A stretch of DNA of 64,000 nucleotides from Polytrichum commune (Eukaryota; Streptophyta; Polytrichopsida; Polytrichales; Polytrichaceae). Positions within the stretch are counted from its first letter, which is position 1; each line of letters opens with the position of its first letter. Under the pieces are notes generated by a model. It ran no database searches, was not told the origin of the DNA, and worked only from the letters and a program-made list of their open reading frames with translations. Both the position numbers and the translations under genes were made by a program. The stretch spans positions 4,960,501 to 5,024,500 of the forward strand of contig OX485805.1 in the NCBI GenBank assembly GCA_950295325.1. The letters are read 5' to 3'. Positions 16,419 to 39,637 of the stretch are shown in pieces.

Positions 16419-17348
16419 CTACAAGGTTCCTACTTGATTAGTTGCTGTTGTGAATGTCATACATCTCAAGTTGTATCTTGTGTTTTGACTTTGTCTAGCA
16501 ATTGGCAAGACAGTTTGAGTCTCTCCATCAAACTTCAAGTATCCTCCACAATCTTCACATTGGTATTCCCACAATTTCCCATCCTCGAGGACTCTGTGAA
16601 TCGTCGTGCTTGATGACTTACACCAATTGCAGGGTTTGACGATATCGACAAATTCAATCGGCTCCTCACATTCTTCTTCATCGGAATCCTCATCTTGAGA
16701 GGCCAACTCGATCATAATGCGGCGTTTTCTATCCATCTCACACATCTCGTGCAACCAAGCCATTTCGTCCTCATCAATCTCCTCTTCGCTTTCATCACTC
16801 GAGTCATCGGACTCTCTTTTTCGAGAGGGCACTTTTATTTTCTTGTTGGCATTTCCCAACACCCAAGGTTGTCCGATTGTCTCGCTTCCGCACGATTCCC
16901 AAACGTCTAATACAGCGTCAACCTCGGATTTTCTCTTAAGTCTTAGCCGTCCGCCCTGCGTGAAACTCATTTTGCAAGCTCCACATTTATACCGCGGTTG
17001 TGTGACCTTGCCATTATTGTAGTATAAAAACTTATGAGCACCAACTTTTCCGCACTCTGGATGAGGACAAACTACAATAGCATTGTCATGGAGATCCTGA
17101 ACTTGAGACACCGGTCTGTTGTTTCGCGCAGCCTTCTTGTAGCCTTGAGGGTGTTTCCTCCTTCGGGAATTAGGATTGTGTGTGAAATGTTTCGTACACC
17201 CCAAACACTTGTATCGCGGTTGCTCAATACTCTTGTTGTTCAAGAACTTGAAGACCGCGTTCGTGGACTCGCAAAAGGGACATGTTTTAATCACATCAAC
17301 ATAAATCGGAGGCTCCATTGCTTGGCACGATCTCCCCATTTTTTTCAT
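16419..17348 (-). CDS. Dof-like transcription factor with three zinc ribbons, copy 1
   Basis: A single exon encodes 309 residues. Ribbon 1 (C23, C26, C48, C51) has the Dof spacing C-x2-C-x21-C-x2-C and the Dof-like strings CPFCESTN and EQPRYKCLGC. Ribbon 2 (C94, C99, C122, C125) is C-x4-C-x22-C-x2-C and ends FTQGGRLR, recalling the Dof WTKGGTLR segment. Ribbon 3 (C240, C243, C264, C267) is C-x2-C-x20-C-x2-C. Between ribbons 2 and 3 lie basic stretches (KRK, KKIK, RKR), likely nuclear signals, and an acidic region with IDEDEMAW. Dof proteins are plant nuclear DNA-binding regulators that usually carry one finger. The lack of introns fits Dof genes. The start is the first of three near ATGs (residues 1, 4, 11). 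Its paralogue lies at 38612-39637. DNA-binding specificity cannot be inferred. Confidence 0.88.
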   Translation of the reverse strand: MKKMGRSCQAMEPPIYVDVIKTCPFCESTNAVFKFLNNKSIEQPRYKCLGCTKHFTHNPNSRRRKHPQGYKKAARNNRPVSQVQDLHDNAIVVCPHPECGKVGAHKFLYYNNGKVTQPRYKCGACKMSFTQGGRLRLKRKSEVDAVLDVWESCGSETIGQPWVLGNANKKIKVPSRKRESDDSSDESEEEIDEDEMAWLHEMCEMDRKRRIMIELASQDEDSDEEECEEPIEFVDIVKPCNWCKSSSTTIHRVLEDGKLWEYQCEDCGGYLKFDGETQTVLPIARQSQNTRYNLRCMTFTTATNQVGTL

Positions 17349-17984: not shown

Positions 17985-20515
17985 TTACACATGAGGAATT
18001 TGCACGTCCTTATATGTGCACAGGTAAGGCTCATCACACCCCACATAGCAGCCTGCCCAGTTGCCATTGTCAATGTAGCCTGCATTCCACACGGATGCAT
18101 ACAAAAACATGGGTTTCGTAGGATAAGCTCCGCCCTCCTTGCGTTCGTGTTTTCGGACTTGAGTGCCATCAATTAGCCACAGAATCCTCTCAGGGCTCCA
18201 ATTGATTGTGTATTCGTGGAACTCCAAGGAGGAGTCAAAGCCCAATTGGTGGATCTCCTCCCGGTTCCCAGTTCCGACCGTATACACATTGGTTTGGATG
18301 ATGCCCTTGTCTTTGCCCAGAAACTCAAAATCGATCTCGTCTTGCGTTTTGTCACCTTCTAGAGACGACAGGTAGAAGCTGCAGTTCAAGCCGCTCGTGT
18401 TGCCTGCAGGCGTTTTGATCTTTGCACTGAAAATGCCTGCATTCATGTATTCCAGTCAACAAAAACATTAATTAGAATGATAGGACTGTTAGGTAGATGG
18501 AAATGGTTACATATTCCGATTGGCCCACTTCCCCTAGGACATGAAGCACGCAATTAGGTAGTACAAGATGGTTAGCAAATCCAAATCAAGGCCATAGCCA
18601 CTAAGTTCCTCATAATTTCTGGAGCTCATATGAATAACCTATTTATTATCAAAGTGAGGATTCTCGTGCTCATTAAATGCTCATACATGTCTCCCCAAAT
18701 ATGTTGACTGTTGAGTATAGAATTGTTATCATACTTTGAGCATGCACTCCAATCTCTTTTAAGCACATCATGTGATTTTGGTATCAGTTCTCAAAGCCAC
18801 ACCAAAACCACATACCACTCACATATAGGTGTCCAATTATGATAAGCAACCAAATTAAGAACATTCACCTTAGGAGTTTGGAGGCTAGATCGTCAGTGGA
18901 GTGACAAAATATTATATAATTTGGATGAAAGCATTTCATAAGGTTTAACTGAATAAATCCAAGAATTTGATCACAGATTCAATGGAGTCGACAGCTGAAA
19001 AGTGGCATCAGGGATCTACGAGTTTGTCAAAACCCAAAAATTAGTGAAACGAGGCGGTGTCTGGGTTTGTAGGCAGGGAGGTCCACAGTTGACACCTAAT
19101 CTCTTGAACTGTTTATAAATCACCTCCTGAACAGTTCAGGATTTTTTTTAATCTCCTGTCAACATTAAAAGTCGGAAGTGCGCAAAAAAGTAGGGCTTTT
19201 CAGAAATTTTGGGTTGGAATATCAAACCATTTATCATTTAAAGGTGAGCCACAAGTTCCTGAAAAATGGTTTTGGCGCCATCTATCTTAGTAAAGAAATG
19301 TAACAATCTGACTCTTGGACATTGCTTGCTGAACATTTGTCAGCCAAAAATTCAGTACAAATTAGACATGAGGTCATATCAAAGTGTTTGCGGTTATGTT
19401 GTTATGTTTGCCCAATCATTCTGACATGTGAATTCCCAGTATAATTCTCCATGGCACAATCAAAGGAACATGGATCAACCAGGACAAATGTTACATGTAT
19501 ATATATCCTTGTAAGTATTGATGTTCAAACAACATTTACAGAGTAAAGTAACCAGAAAACCAAAAATTCAGCTTTAAGAGTTGCATACTGAATACAAAGT
19601 GCAATCAAATGAAGCAATCAGAAACTAGAAAGTCAAAATAAAGAAATAAAAATAAAAATAAACAAAACAAATCACGCATGGCACAATGTATGACCAGGAG
19701 TTATCCACAACAATCTACATGGACAGAGCCACCAACCAGCAGCAGGAATATAAGAATGAAATTCAGCAATTAAGACATTGAAAAGGCTGACAGAATATGC
19801 CTGGGGTCTGAGGGACGTATGTTGCAAGAAGAAATATAACAAAGTAACATCCTGGTCTTTGGAAGCACACCAATTGCATACTCTAGCAGTGATCCTAGTT
19901 CGTCGTTGATTATTTGAAAACACAAAAATATGAAAACATGCAAAATCAAACCTTAACCTGGAGCAACAAATTATATGCAAAATGATGCTATCTCTATCAT
20001 TTTAACATAAACCTTCCTGTTTTCAGTACCTTTCATGAATCGATGATGAAATTACTGAAAATATTCAAATAAGCCTTATGAAGTGCTTTCAACCAAATAA
20101 ATTAATATTTCGTCACTCCAGTGATCAACTAGCCTCACTTCCTACGCTACTCACTTGTCACCCAAAAATCATCATAAATGAGAAGAAAAGAGAAGTCGGT
20201 GGTTTTGATCCAAAGCCAAAGTGTTTTAGGTTATTCTCAGATGCGAAGTTTCCACTACGAATTCCAGACCACAATCCAGCAACCAAAAGAAAAAAGAGAA
20301 GCACAAAATTAGGGTTGCAGGGATATATGCATACCAGATTCAAACCGATGCTTCGTTCTCCAACGTGCCCCATTTCGGGCATCGTAAGTGATAGCAATCT
20401 CCCTCGCCTCTTTGCTGTGCTCCAAGATCTCGTGCCCGTAGTCGACTTCAATTTCCTCCAGGTGCTTGCAGGCCGTGGTGACAAAAACTACCCCTTCGGC
20501 TTTGGAACTTGCCAT
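17985..20515 (-). CDS. EG16: GH16 endoglucanase of the EG16 type (XTH relative)
   Basis: Two exons on the minus strand, 20515-20335 and 18436-17985, join in frame (phase 1, a Gly codon split) to 210 residues. The GH16 active-site motif is D93-E94-I-D96-F-E98-F-L-G, giving Glu94 as nucleophile and Glu98 as acid/base. ARWRTKHRF, FEFLGKDKG and FHEYTINWSPERI are XTH-like strings. The protein has no signal peptide and ends just after the catalytic fold, without the C-terminal extension of XTH enzymes. These two features, and the length, define the plant EG16 group, known as broad-specificity endo-beta-glucanases acting on xyloglucan and mixed-linkage glucan. Without a signal peptide its route to the wall is unclear. 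A consensus acceptor, TTTGTAG, ends at about 20520, four bases before the ATG, so a leader intron is likely. The 1.9-kb coding intron holds a family A MITE. Confidence 0.87.
18493..18875 (+). mobile_element. MITE family A in the EG16 intron
   Basis: It starts near AGATGGAAATGGTTACATAT and ends near GAACATTCACCTTAGG, with the core strings GATGGTTAGCAAATCCAAAT, AAAGTGAGGATTCTCGTGCT and CATATAGGTGTCCAATTATG. It is antisense to EG16. Confidence 0.78.
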
Positions 20516-38611: not shown

Positions 38612-39637
38612 CTAAGTTTGTTCTGATTCAACCAAATTCCTTGTACATCTCAAGTTGTATTTGGTGTTCCGGCTTTGACGTTCGATCGGCAAGACTCTTT
38701 GCGTCGCACCATCGAACTTCAAGTGTGCACAGCAATCTTGGCATTGATATTCTAGCAGCCCAGAGTCTTTGAGCGTCTTGCAGAACTCTGTGTTTGGCGA
38801 CTTACACCAGTTGCATAGTTTCAGAGTTTCGACAAACTCAGACGGCTCCTCTTCGTCTTCGTCTGAATCCGAATCCGAGTCTTGGTTTCTCTCCACATTC
38901 ATGTGGCGCAGTATGTCCAGTCTGGCCATCTCGTTAAACCAAGCCATCTCATCTTCATCGACCTCCGAGTCTTCATCACTGGAGTCATCAAGCTCGTCTT
39001 CTTCTCTCCGTCGTCGAGATGATAATTTCACTTTCTTGTTGCAGTTCCCTAACACCTTGGGTCGTACAGTAGTTCCACATTGTTCTCCCAAATCCATGGT
39101 CCCGTCCCCAAATTTCCTCTTTAAACTTAAGAGCTGTTCAGCACAGAAACCGGCAACTCCTTGCATTTTGGTGTTGTCCTGATCAAAGTTCCTCTTGGAG
39201 CTTAAGCGTCCGCCGTGTGTGAAAGTCGTGTTGCAACTTCCACATTTGTAGCGCGGTTGTGTCAGCTTGCCATTGTTGAAGAATAAGAACTTGGAAGTCC
39301 CCACTTCCCCGCACCTCGGGTTCAGACATGATACGGTCGCGTTATTTGGGAGTTCCGGGACTGTTGCACCATCTATGTTGCTGCTACTACCACTTCTTTT
39401 TGCTGCAATCTTGGAGTAGCCTTGAGGGTGCTTCTTCCTGCGGGAATTGGGATTGTGGGTGAAAAATTTAGTACACCCCAAACACTTGTATCTCGGTTGC
39501 TCCATGTTTTTATTATTGAGGAACTTGAACTCTGCATCGGTGGAGCTGCAAAACGGGCACGTCTTGGTGACGCCCACATACATTGCAGGCTCCATGGCTG
39601 TTTTTGGCCTCCCCATTTTAGCCGCCTTCTTCTCCAT
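38612..39637 (-). CDS. Dof-like transcription factor with three zinc ribbons, copy 2
   Basis: A single exon encodes 341 residues from the ATG at 39637, chosen because it aligns with the start of copy 1; an in-frame ATG at 39670 would add 11 residues. Ribbon 1 (C27, C30, C52, C55) keeps the Dof spacing x2-x21-x2 with CPFCSSTD and EQPRYKCLGC. Ribbon 2 (C104, C109, C132, C135) is x4-x22-x2 and ends FTHGGRLS. Ribbon 3 (C275, C278, C299, C302) is x2-x20-x2. MGRPK at 8-12 resembles an AT-hook core. An acidic, serine-rich region with VDEDEMAWFNEM precedes ribbon 3, and the tail VLPIERQSRNTKYNLRC matches copy 1 closely. Compared with copy 1 it has about 30 extra residues, part of them after ribbon 2. 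It is presumably a nuclear DNA-binding regulator; targets are unknown. Confidence 0.88.
   Translation of the reverse strand: MEKKAAKMGRPKTAMEPAMYVGVTKTCPFCSSTDAEFKFLNNKNMEQPRYKCLGCTKFFTHNPNSRRKKHPQGYSKIAAKRSGSSSNIDGATVPELPNNATVSCLNPRCGEVGTSKFLFFNNGKLTQPRYKCGSCNTTFTHGGRLSSKRNFDQDNTKMQGVAGFCAEQLLSLKRKFGDGTMDLGEQCGTTVRPKVLGNCNKKVKLSSRRRREEDELDDSSDEDSEVDEDEMAWFNEMARLDILRHMNVERNQDSDSDSDEDEEEPSEFVETLKLCNWCKSPNTEFCKTLKDSGLLEYQCQDCCAHLKFDGATQRVLPIERQSRNTKYNLRCTRNLVESEQT

Follow-up and report, generated by a model that had tools for sequence, protein, structure and literature searches.

Tandem Dof-derived zinc ribbons in a moss protein and in the expanded gene family to which it belongs

Within a 64,000-nucleotide stretch of the genome of the moss Polytrichum commune (assembly GCA_950295325.1, contig OX485805.1, positions 4,960,501 to 5,024,500; hereafter the window), the open reading frame (ORF) 16419-17348 of the reverse strand, called here gene 1, encodes a predicted protein of 309 residues with three zinc ribbons. 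A preliminary description made from the letters alone had presented it as a Dof-like protein with three ribbons instead of one. Our analysis favors, with a probability of about 0.55, the reading that gene 1 is functional and belongs to a Dof-derived family whose ribbon unit was duplicated in tandem within the protein, and that its product would be a nuclear regulator binding DNA through ribbons 1 and 2, with ribbon 3 serving for protein contact. While the three-ribbon layout is indeed unusual, gene 1 is not an isolated oddity: the genome has 16 multi-ribbon ORFs, and gene 1 is among them.

Profile matches identify ribbons 1 and 2 as homologous to the Dof domain. Against the Pfam Dof family (PF02701, curated cut-off 26.6 bits), the whole gene 1 protein scores 75.9 bits with E = 2.7e-21, and its Dof-likeness is therefore not due to chance. 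Cut out alone, ribbons 1 and 2 each exceed the cut-off in gene 1 and also in gene 2, a paralogue with the same layout located in the same window (Table 1). Ribbon 3, already described as more diverged, has lost the QPR motif and fails to reach the Dof cut-off as a cut-out piece (no listed match in gene 1, 13.0 bits in gene 2). In a sequence search of the PDB with gene 1, the Dof domain of CDF1 (8xuf_C) was recovered at E = 1.2e-6, the second-best of the seven matches standing at 0.45. The spacings given in the preliminary description match the ORF exactly: C23-x2-C26-x21-C48-x2-C51 in ribbon 1, C94-x4-C99-x22-C122-x2-C125 in ribbon 2 and C240-x2-C243-x20-C264-x2-C267 in ribbon 3, of which only the first corresponds to the Dof spacing C-x2-C-x21-C-x2-C. 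The strings NN...QPRYKC and FTxGGRLR are likewise present in ribbon 2, the latter as FTQGGRLR. As for the Dof-like strings noted in ribbon 1, they are borne out for the ribbon core but not beyond it, the Dof tryptophan and the C-terminal RNVPVGGG tail being absent.

These absences delimit the family. The canonical Dofs of this genome (eight copies) and the family share the Cys2/Cys2 ribbon core, the NN...QPR-x-x-C-x-x-C motif and a Pfam score above the cut-off, and the x21 loop is common to canonical Dof and ribbon 1. They differ in the number of ribbons, one in 8/8 canonical copies and three in each window gene, and in a lead-in motif, EP..(Y/F)V...K.C, found in the family and lacking in the canonical proteins. 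Moreover, the position +4 past the last ribbon cysteine is occupied by tryptophan in all eight canonical copies, whereas it is phenylalanine or tyrosine in 33/33 non-canonical units (29 F and 4 Y, a count that omits ribbon 3 and near-identical copies). The tail GGTLRNVPVGGGxRK, as defined from the canonical copies, is kept by all eight with small changes; in gene 1 it is replaced by NPNSRRRKHPQGYKK after ribbon 1 and by GGRLRLKRKS after ribbon 2, the ribbon 1 tail being a conserved basic NPxSRRxKHPxGYxK in the subgroup of the window genes. Because the Dof tryptophan and the RNVPVGG tail are absent, the family is, by these sequence marks, Dof-derived and not canonical Dof.

Comparison of the two window genes indicates that this protein has been kept by selection. 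Their products are 60% identical across 302 aligned codons, and the alignment shows that 12/12 ribbon cysteines are conserved and that the basic patch and the acidic stretch listed in Table 1 are present in both. The proportion of synonymous differences (pS) is 0.69, corresponding to a synonymous divergence (dS) of about 1.9, which is near saturation, and that of nonsynonymous differences (pN) is 0.24; the resulting ratio of nonsynonymous to synonymous divergence (dN/dS), about 0.15, is rough owing to the saturated dS, its direction not being in doubt. In 10/10 sub-regions pN is below pS, including ribbon 3 (0.26 vs 1.01), with the caveat that sub-region pS values above 1 are counting artefacts and that some sub-regions hold just 12 to 22 codons. 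Both genes are intact, with their protein under purifying selection, and pN below pS at near-saturated synonymous sites implies that selection has long preserved the three-ribbon protein.

Table 1. Features of the two window genes (window coordinates)
Feature	Position	Strand	Remarks
Gene 1, predicted three-ribbon Dof-derived protein	16419..17348	-	complete ORF, ATG to stop, 309 residues, apparently intronless
Lead-in motif of ribbon 1, QAMEPPIYVDVIKT	17283..17324	-	pattern common to family
Ribbon 1, CxxC-x21-CxxC	17196..17282	-	Pfam Dof 45.1 bits alone
Basic tail of ribbon 1, TKHFTHNPNSRRRKHPQGYKK, where Dof has RNVPVGGG	17133..17195	-	gene 2 keeps 18/21 residues
Ribbon 2, C-x4-C-x22-CxxC	16974..17069	-	Pfam Dof 50.4 bits alone; positional clade in tree
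Basic patch NKKIKVPSRKR, nuclear-localisation-like	16815..16847	-	gene 2 counterpart NKKVKLSSRRR (alignment)
Acidic stretch with predicted helix (DEDEMAWLHEM...), possible activation region	16671..16808	-	predicted function
Lead-in motif of ribbon 3, EEPIEFVDIVKP	16632..16667	-	pattern as for ribbon 1 lead-in
Ribbon 3, CxxC-x20-CxxC, probable degenerate third copy without QPR	16548..16631	-	
C-terminal motif LPIxRQSxNTxYNLRC, conserved	16461..16508	-	gene 1/gene 2 alignment
Gene 2, paralogue with same three-ribbon layout	38612..39637	-	341 residues from its ATG
Gene 2 ribbon 1	39473..39559	-	Pfam Dof 44.0 bits alone
Gene 2 ribbon 2	39233..39328	-	Pfam Dof 43.6 bits alone
Gene 2 ribbon 3	38732..38815	-	Pfam Dof 13.0 bits, under cut-off

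Ribbon 3 most likely represents a third, decayed copy of the lead-in-plus-ribbon unit, as suggested by the shared lead-in motif, by profile scores that beat those of shuffled sequences and by the failure of a competing Pfam match on cut pieces. Upstream of ribbon 3, both genes have EEP.EFV...K.C, that is, the pattern seen before ribbon 1 (MEP..YV.V.KTC), which also precedes most ribbons of other family members. On a profile built from 24 lead-in-plus-ribbon units of ribbon-1 type (ribbon 1 of both window genes included, ribbon 3 left out), the tail fragments bearing ribbon 3 score 22.3 and 17.8 bits, values reached by none of the 500 cysteine-preserving shuffles of each fragment (maxima 16.5 and 11.4); scored inside the whole proteins, the same stretches obtain 19.4 and 14.9 bits. 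A genome search with 79 residues around ribbon 3 returned both window genes and three weak matches (E = 0.26, 0.39 and 0.42), the first and the last of which fall in ribbon units of the family (loci L022 and L025). In a tree of ribbon units described below, ribbon 3 stands beside an L022 unit with support of 96/75 (not starred); its branch is long, and the gene 1 copy is flagged for unusual composition. The competing match raises the alternative that a Lar-type zinc ribbon of unrelated origin was joined, as ribbon 3, to a two-ribbon Dof protein: Pfam Lar (PF14354) exceeds its cut-off on whole gene 1 (32.9 vs 28.6 bits). This score, however, combines two stretches which alone give 17.7 bits (ribbon 1 piece) and 19.0 bits (ribbon 3 piece), both ribbon 3 pieces lying under the Lar cut-off (15.6 bits in gene 2); whole gene 2 yields 13.5 bits, and the family lead-in standing before ribbon 3 also speaks against such an origin, which we hold to be improbable.

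A Dof profile search of the assembly (408 Mb in 64 contigs, about 406 Mb of it in seven large ones) gave at least 59 matches, all above the cut-off, in 42 places after manual grouping by reading frame. These comprise the eight canonical Dofs (L001-L008, 113-120 bits), 16 ORFs that each contain two or three matches, contig C3 carrying 9 of these ORFs, and 18 single-match places that include broken copies and possibly intron-split genes. Examination of the sequences located a ribbon or part of one in 34/34 non-canonical places, among which gene 1 and gene 2 alone have their exact layout in intact form: L017 has this layout and is cut off within ribbon 3, and L022 has three Dof-type units, detected by Pfam as three stretches, in another arrangement. 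L009-L012 and L016 have, in addition to ribbons 1 and 2, a series of acidic repeats at the C-terminus, judged by eye and measured only in L011, whereas L013-L015 and L018 have ribbons 1 and 2 with a long acidic N-terminal region, also judged by eye. The start region of gene 1 is similar to those of L009-L012, L016 and L017. In L011 (935-2037, contig C3), the C-terminal array consists of 34-residue acidic-hydrophobic repeats, 102 bases repeated 10.7 times; it resembles an expandable activation-type region placed after two Dof-like ribbons, and the runs of L009, L010, L012 and L016 look by eye similar but shorter.

A search with the whole protein returned 48 matches, including further weak and broken copies. 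A finite dN/dS could be obtained for 12 of 15 paralogue pairs; it ranged from 0.15 to 0.75, with recent pairs at 0.37-0.75. It could be asked on this basis whether the family is merely decaying, its multi-ribbon genes being duplicates heading for loss that have no function of their own. Both the high ratios of recent pairs, up to 0.75, and the broken copies would fit such a view (L017 ends within ribbon 3, and stops interrupt L034, L032, C3:1899317 and C3:50856969). It is nevertheless very unlikely, the window genes having remained intact at near-saturated synonymous divergence with a low dN/dS and all their ribbon cysteines.

Further arrangements of family ribbons were seen in the course of these searches. 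At L020 (1798-7066, contig C6 near 44.47 Mb), four family ORFs follow one another over about 5.3 kb, and one of the four has two ribbons. The frames of L019 and L035 start with a second ribbon half and continue with a complete C..C...C-x4-C unit, with KPHRGGYKK or KVHPEGYKK in between, and these loci are probably multi-ribbon genes that are split by introns and belong to a separate branch. L025 (2446-3219) has a single Dof-like ribbon and, after it, two CxxC...CxxC clusters that are spaced differently; Pfam Dof is found in the first only.

How the family arose was addressed with a tree of 43 ribbon units over 66 columns, which is poorly resolved and confined to sequences of this genome, near-identical copies being left out. 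The eight canonical Dofs, used as outgroup, form a single clade (100/99). A further clade (97/89) unites the second ribbons of seven genes, which represent three layouts, and is separate from the first ribbons of the same genes; this clustering by position implies that the ribbon 2 form arose before the seven genes multiplied. Among non-canonical units, the single-ribbon L028 and then L026 branch first. The preliminary description had considered a relict of early Dof diversification, which these data, drawn from this genome alone, do not favor. Given that the canonical Dofs are one tight clade and that the family is long-branched with recent and broken copies, the multi-ribbon family looks like a derived, expanding lineage.

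The same data bear on whether the ribbons could be domesticated or captured from transposases of IS1/IS1595 type and not be Dof by recent descent. The IS1 InsA and IS1595 transposase ribbons have a similar CxxC...C..C organization, and traces of both were picked up by Pfam, InsA on L028 (21.5 vs a cut-off of 26.1 bits) and the IS1595 ribbon on L017 (16.4 vs 25.4 bits). The family thus stays under their cut-offs, however, and on these two loci Dof is far stronger (69.5 and 68.9 bits). Graded intermediates with a tail resembling part of the Dof tail exist as well, RYYTHGG being kept in L028 and L029, GYYTHGG in L030 and FYTHGG in L026; L028 and L026 are the first-branching units, L029 and L030 not being in the tree. 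In addition, no relative was confirmed in prokaryote or viral contigs by scans that detect close relatives only. Descent from a transposase is thus extremely improbable.

Regarding function, the basic patch NKKIKVPSRKR would carry the gene 1 protein to the nucleus. Ribbons 1 and 2, which keep the QPR-Y-x-C-x-x-C core and are both net basic (+2 and +4 in gene 1, +1 and +4 in gene 2), may contact DNA jointly, the tethered pair reading two neighboring sites, so that one polypeptide would achieve what canonical Dofs do when they occupy two AAAG sites. Ribbon 3, devoid of QPR and net acidic (-2 in gene 1, -1 in gene 2), could serve for contact with proteins. The acidic stretch and helix (about residues 181-226) may form an activation or partner-binding region; a low-confidence structure model places the helix at residues 193-218. 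Composite-site binding by ribbons 1 and 2 is plausible. According to a review, canonical Dof domains bind a two-site oligonucleotide about 100 times more strongly than a single-site one, Dof proteins have a single such finger, and the tryptophan after its second CxxC is important for DNA binding (PMC9897228). The gain from paired sites would favor a tethered ribbon pair.

Several observations speak for the main rival explanation, namely that the Dof-derived ribbons no longer read DNA sequence and have become modules for protein or RNA contact in an adaptor or co-regulator. That tryptophan is lost in all 33 units and the Dof tail is replaced; ribbon 3 has the acidic, QPR-less character just mentioned; and in a structure search with the model of ribbon 1, ribosome and RNA polymerase II chains, which are presumably zinc ribbons, score as well as CDF1. 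On the other hand, nearly all listed units of ribbons 1 and 2 retain NN...QPR and the second CxxC, and the basic tail of ribbon 1, NPxSRRxKHPxGYxK, is conserved in the subgroup as would be expected of a nucleic-acid surface. We consider an adaptor role rather unlikely and retain DNA binding through ribbons 1 and 2 as the preferred reading.

As is apparent from a 2024 review (PMC10842470), tandem Dof domains are neither new in themselves nor demonstrably restricted to mosses. There, 16 multi-DOF genes are counted (four in Physcomitrella patens, three in Ceratodon purpureus, five in Aquilegia, three in Actinidia and one in Rhododendron) and are called previously unreported, functionally uncharacterised and possibly artefacts. 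Like the family described here, these genes encode more than one Dof domain per protein, and 7/16 are in mosses; judged from their description, they may belong to the same family, those of flowering plants being perhaps independent events or artefacts. In the review, the domains of one multi-DOF gene group together, whereas here the second ribbons of seven genes group by position. The proposal of an undescribed subfamily is hence partly upheld: multi-Dof genes had been noted, without characterization (PMC10842470), while no description of the three-ribbon layout was found among the papers listed, at the level of titles, starts of abstracts and passages, a scope from which subscription papers and preprints were mostly absent. 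What is new here is the expanded family in a nearly chromosome-scale assembly, the divergence of ribbons by position, the shared lead-in motif, the loss of the Dof tryptophan and a three-ribbon layout that is kept under purifying selection. With numerous multi-ribbon genes and an intact window pair under purifying selection, the doubt about artefacts is answered for this genome.

It is tempting, although still tentative, to propose that mosses hold a separate Dof-derived class, a fixed reader with two or three fingers in which ribbon 2 was stretched before gene multiplication and ribbon 3 turned to protein contact, and whose array would read composite sites beyond any one-finger Dof. The name Dof refers to a single finger; if the proposal is true, this part of the name fails for a whole land-plant lineage. 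The family also offers a natural test of how specificity is gained by tandem duplication in a reader of short DNA sites, and it supplies a ready set of genes for expression.

The light-harvesting proteins encoded by the assembly make a moss very likely. One chlorophyll-binding protein matches chain 9 of PDB entries 7xqp and 8htu at 329 and 328 bits; among the 46 matches listed, the others reach 227 bits at most, apart from long chains of entry 9vfj (231-362 bits). For LHCII, too, the best matches outside 9vfj are 8htu_U and 7xqp_a (461 and 459 bits, against 438 for the next one). Entries 7xqp and 8htu are from Physcomitrium patens, and their chain 9 is Lhcb9. In one paper, Lhcb9 is described as an antenna protein specific to Physcomitrella, and its supercomplex as moss-specific (PMC9434285). 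The seven large contigs would also agree with mosses that have seven chromosomes, such as Polytrichales.

Finally, two observations concern other genes. Adjoining gene 1, the window contains at 17985-18446 (reverse strand) a piece of a glycosyl hydrolase family 16 ORF (Pfam, 137 bits), which we take to be perhaps a xyloglucan endotransglucosylase. Elsewhere in the assembly, 14 chlorophyll a/b-binding matches with identical scores lie within 95 kb (C5:1751760-1846160), probably a large tandem LHCII array.
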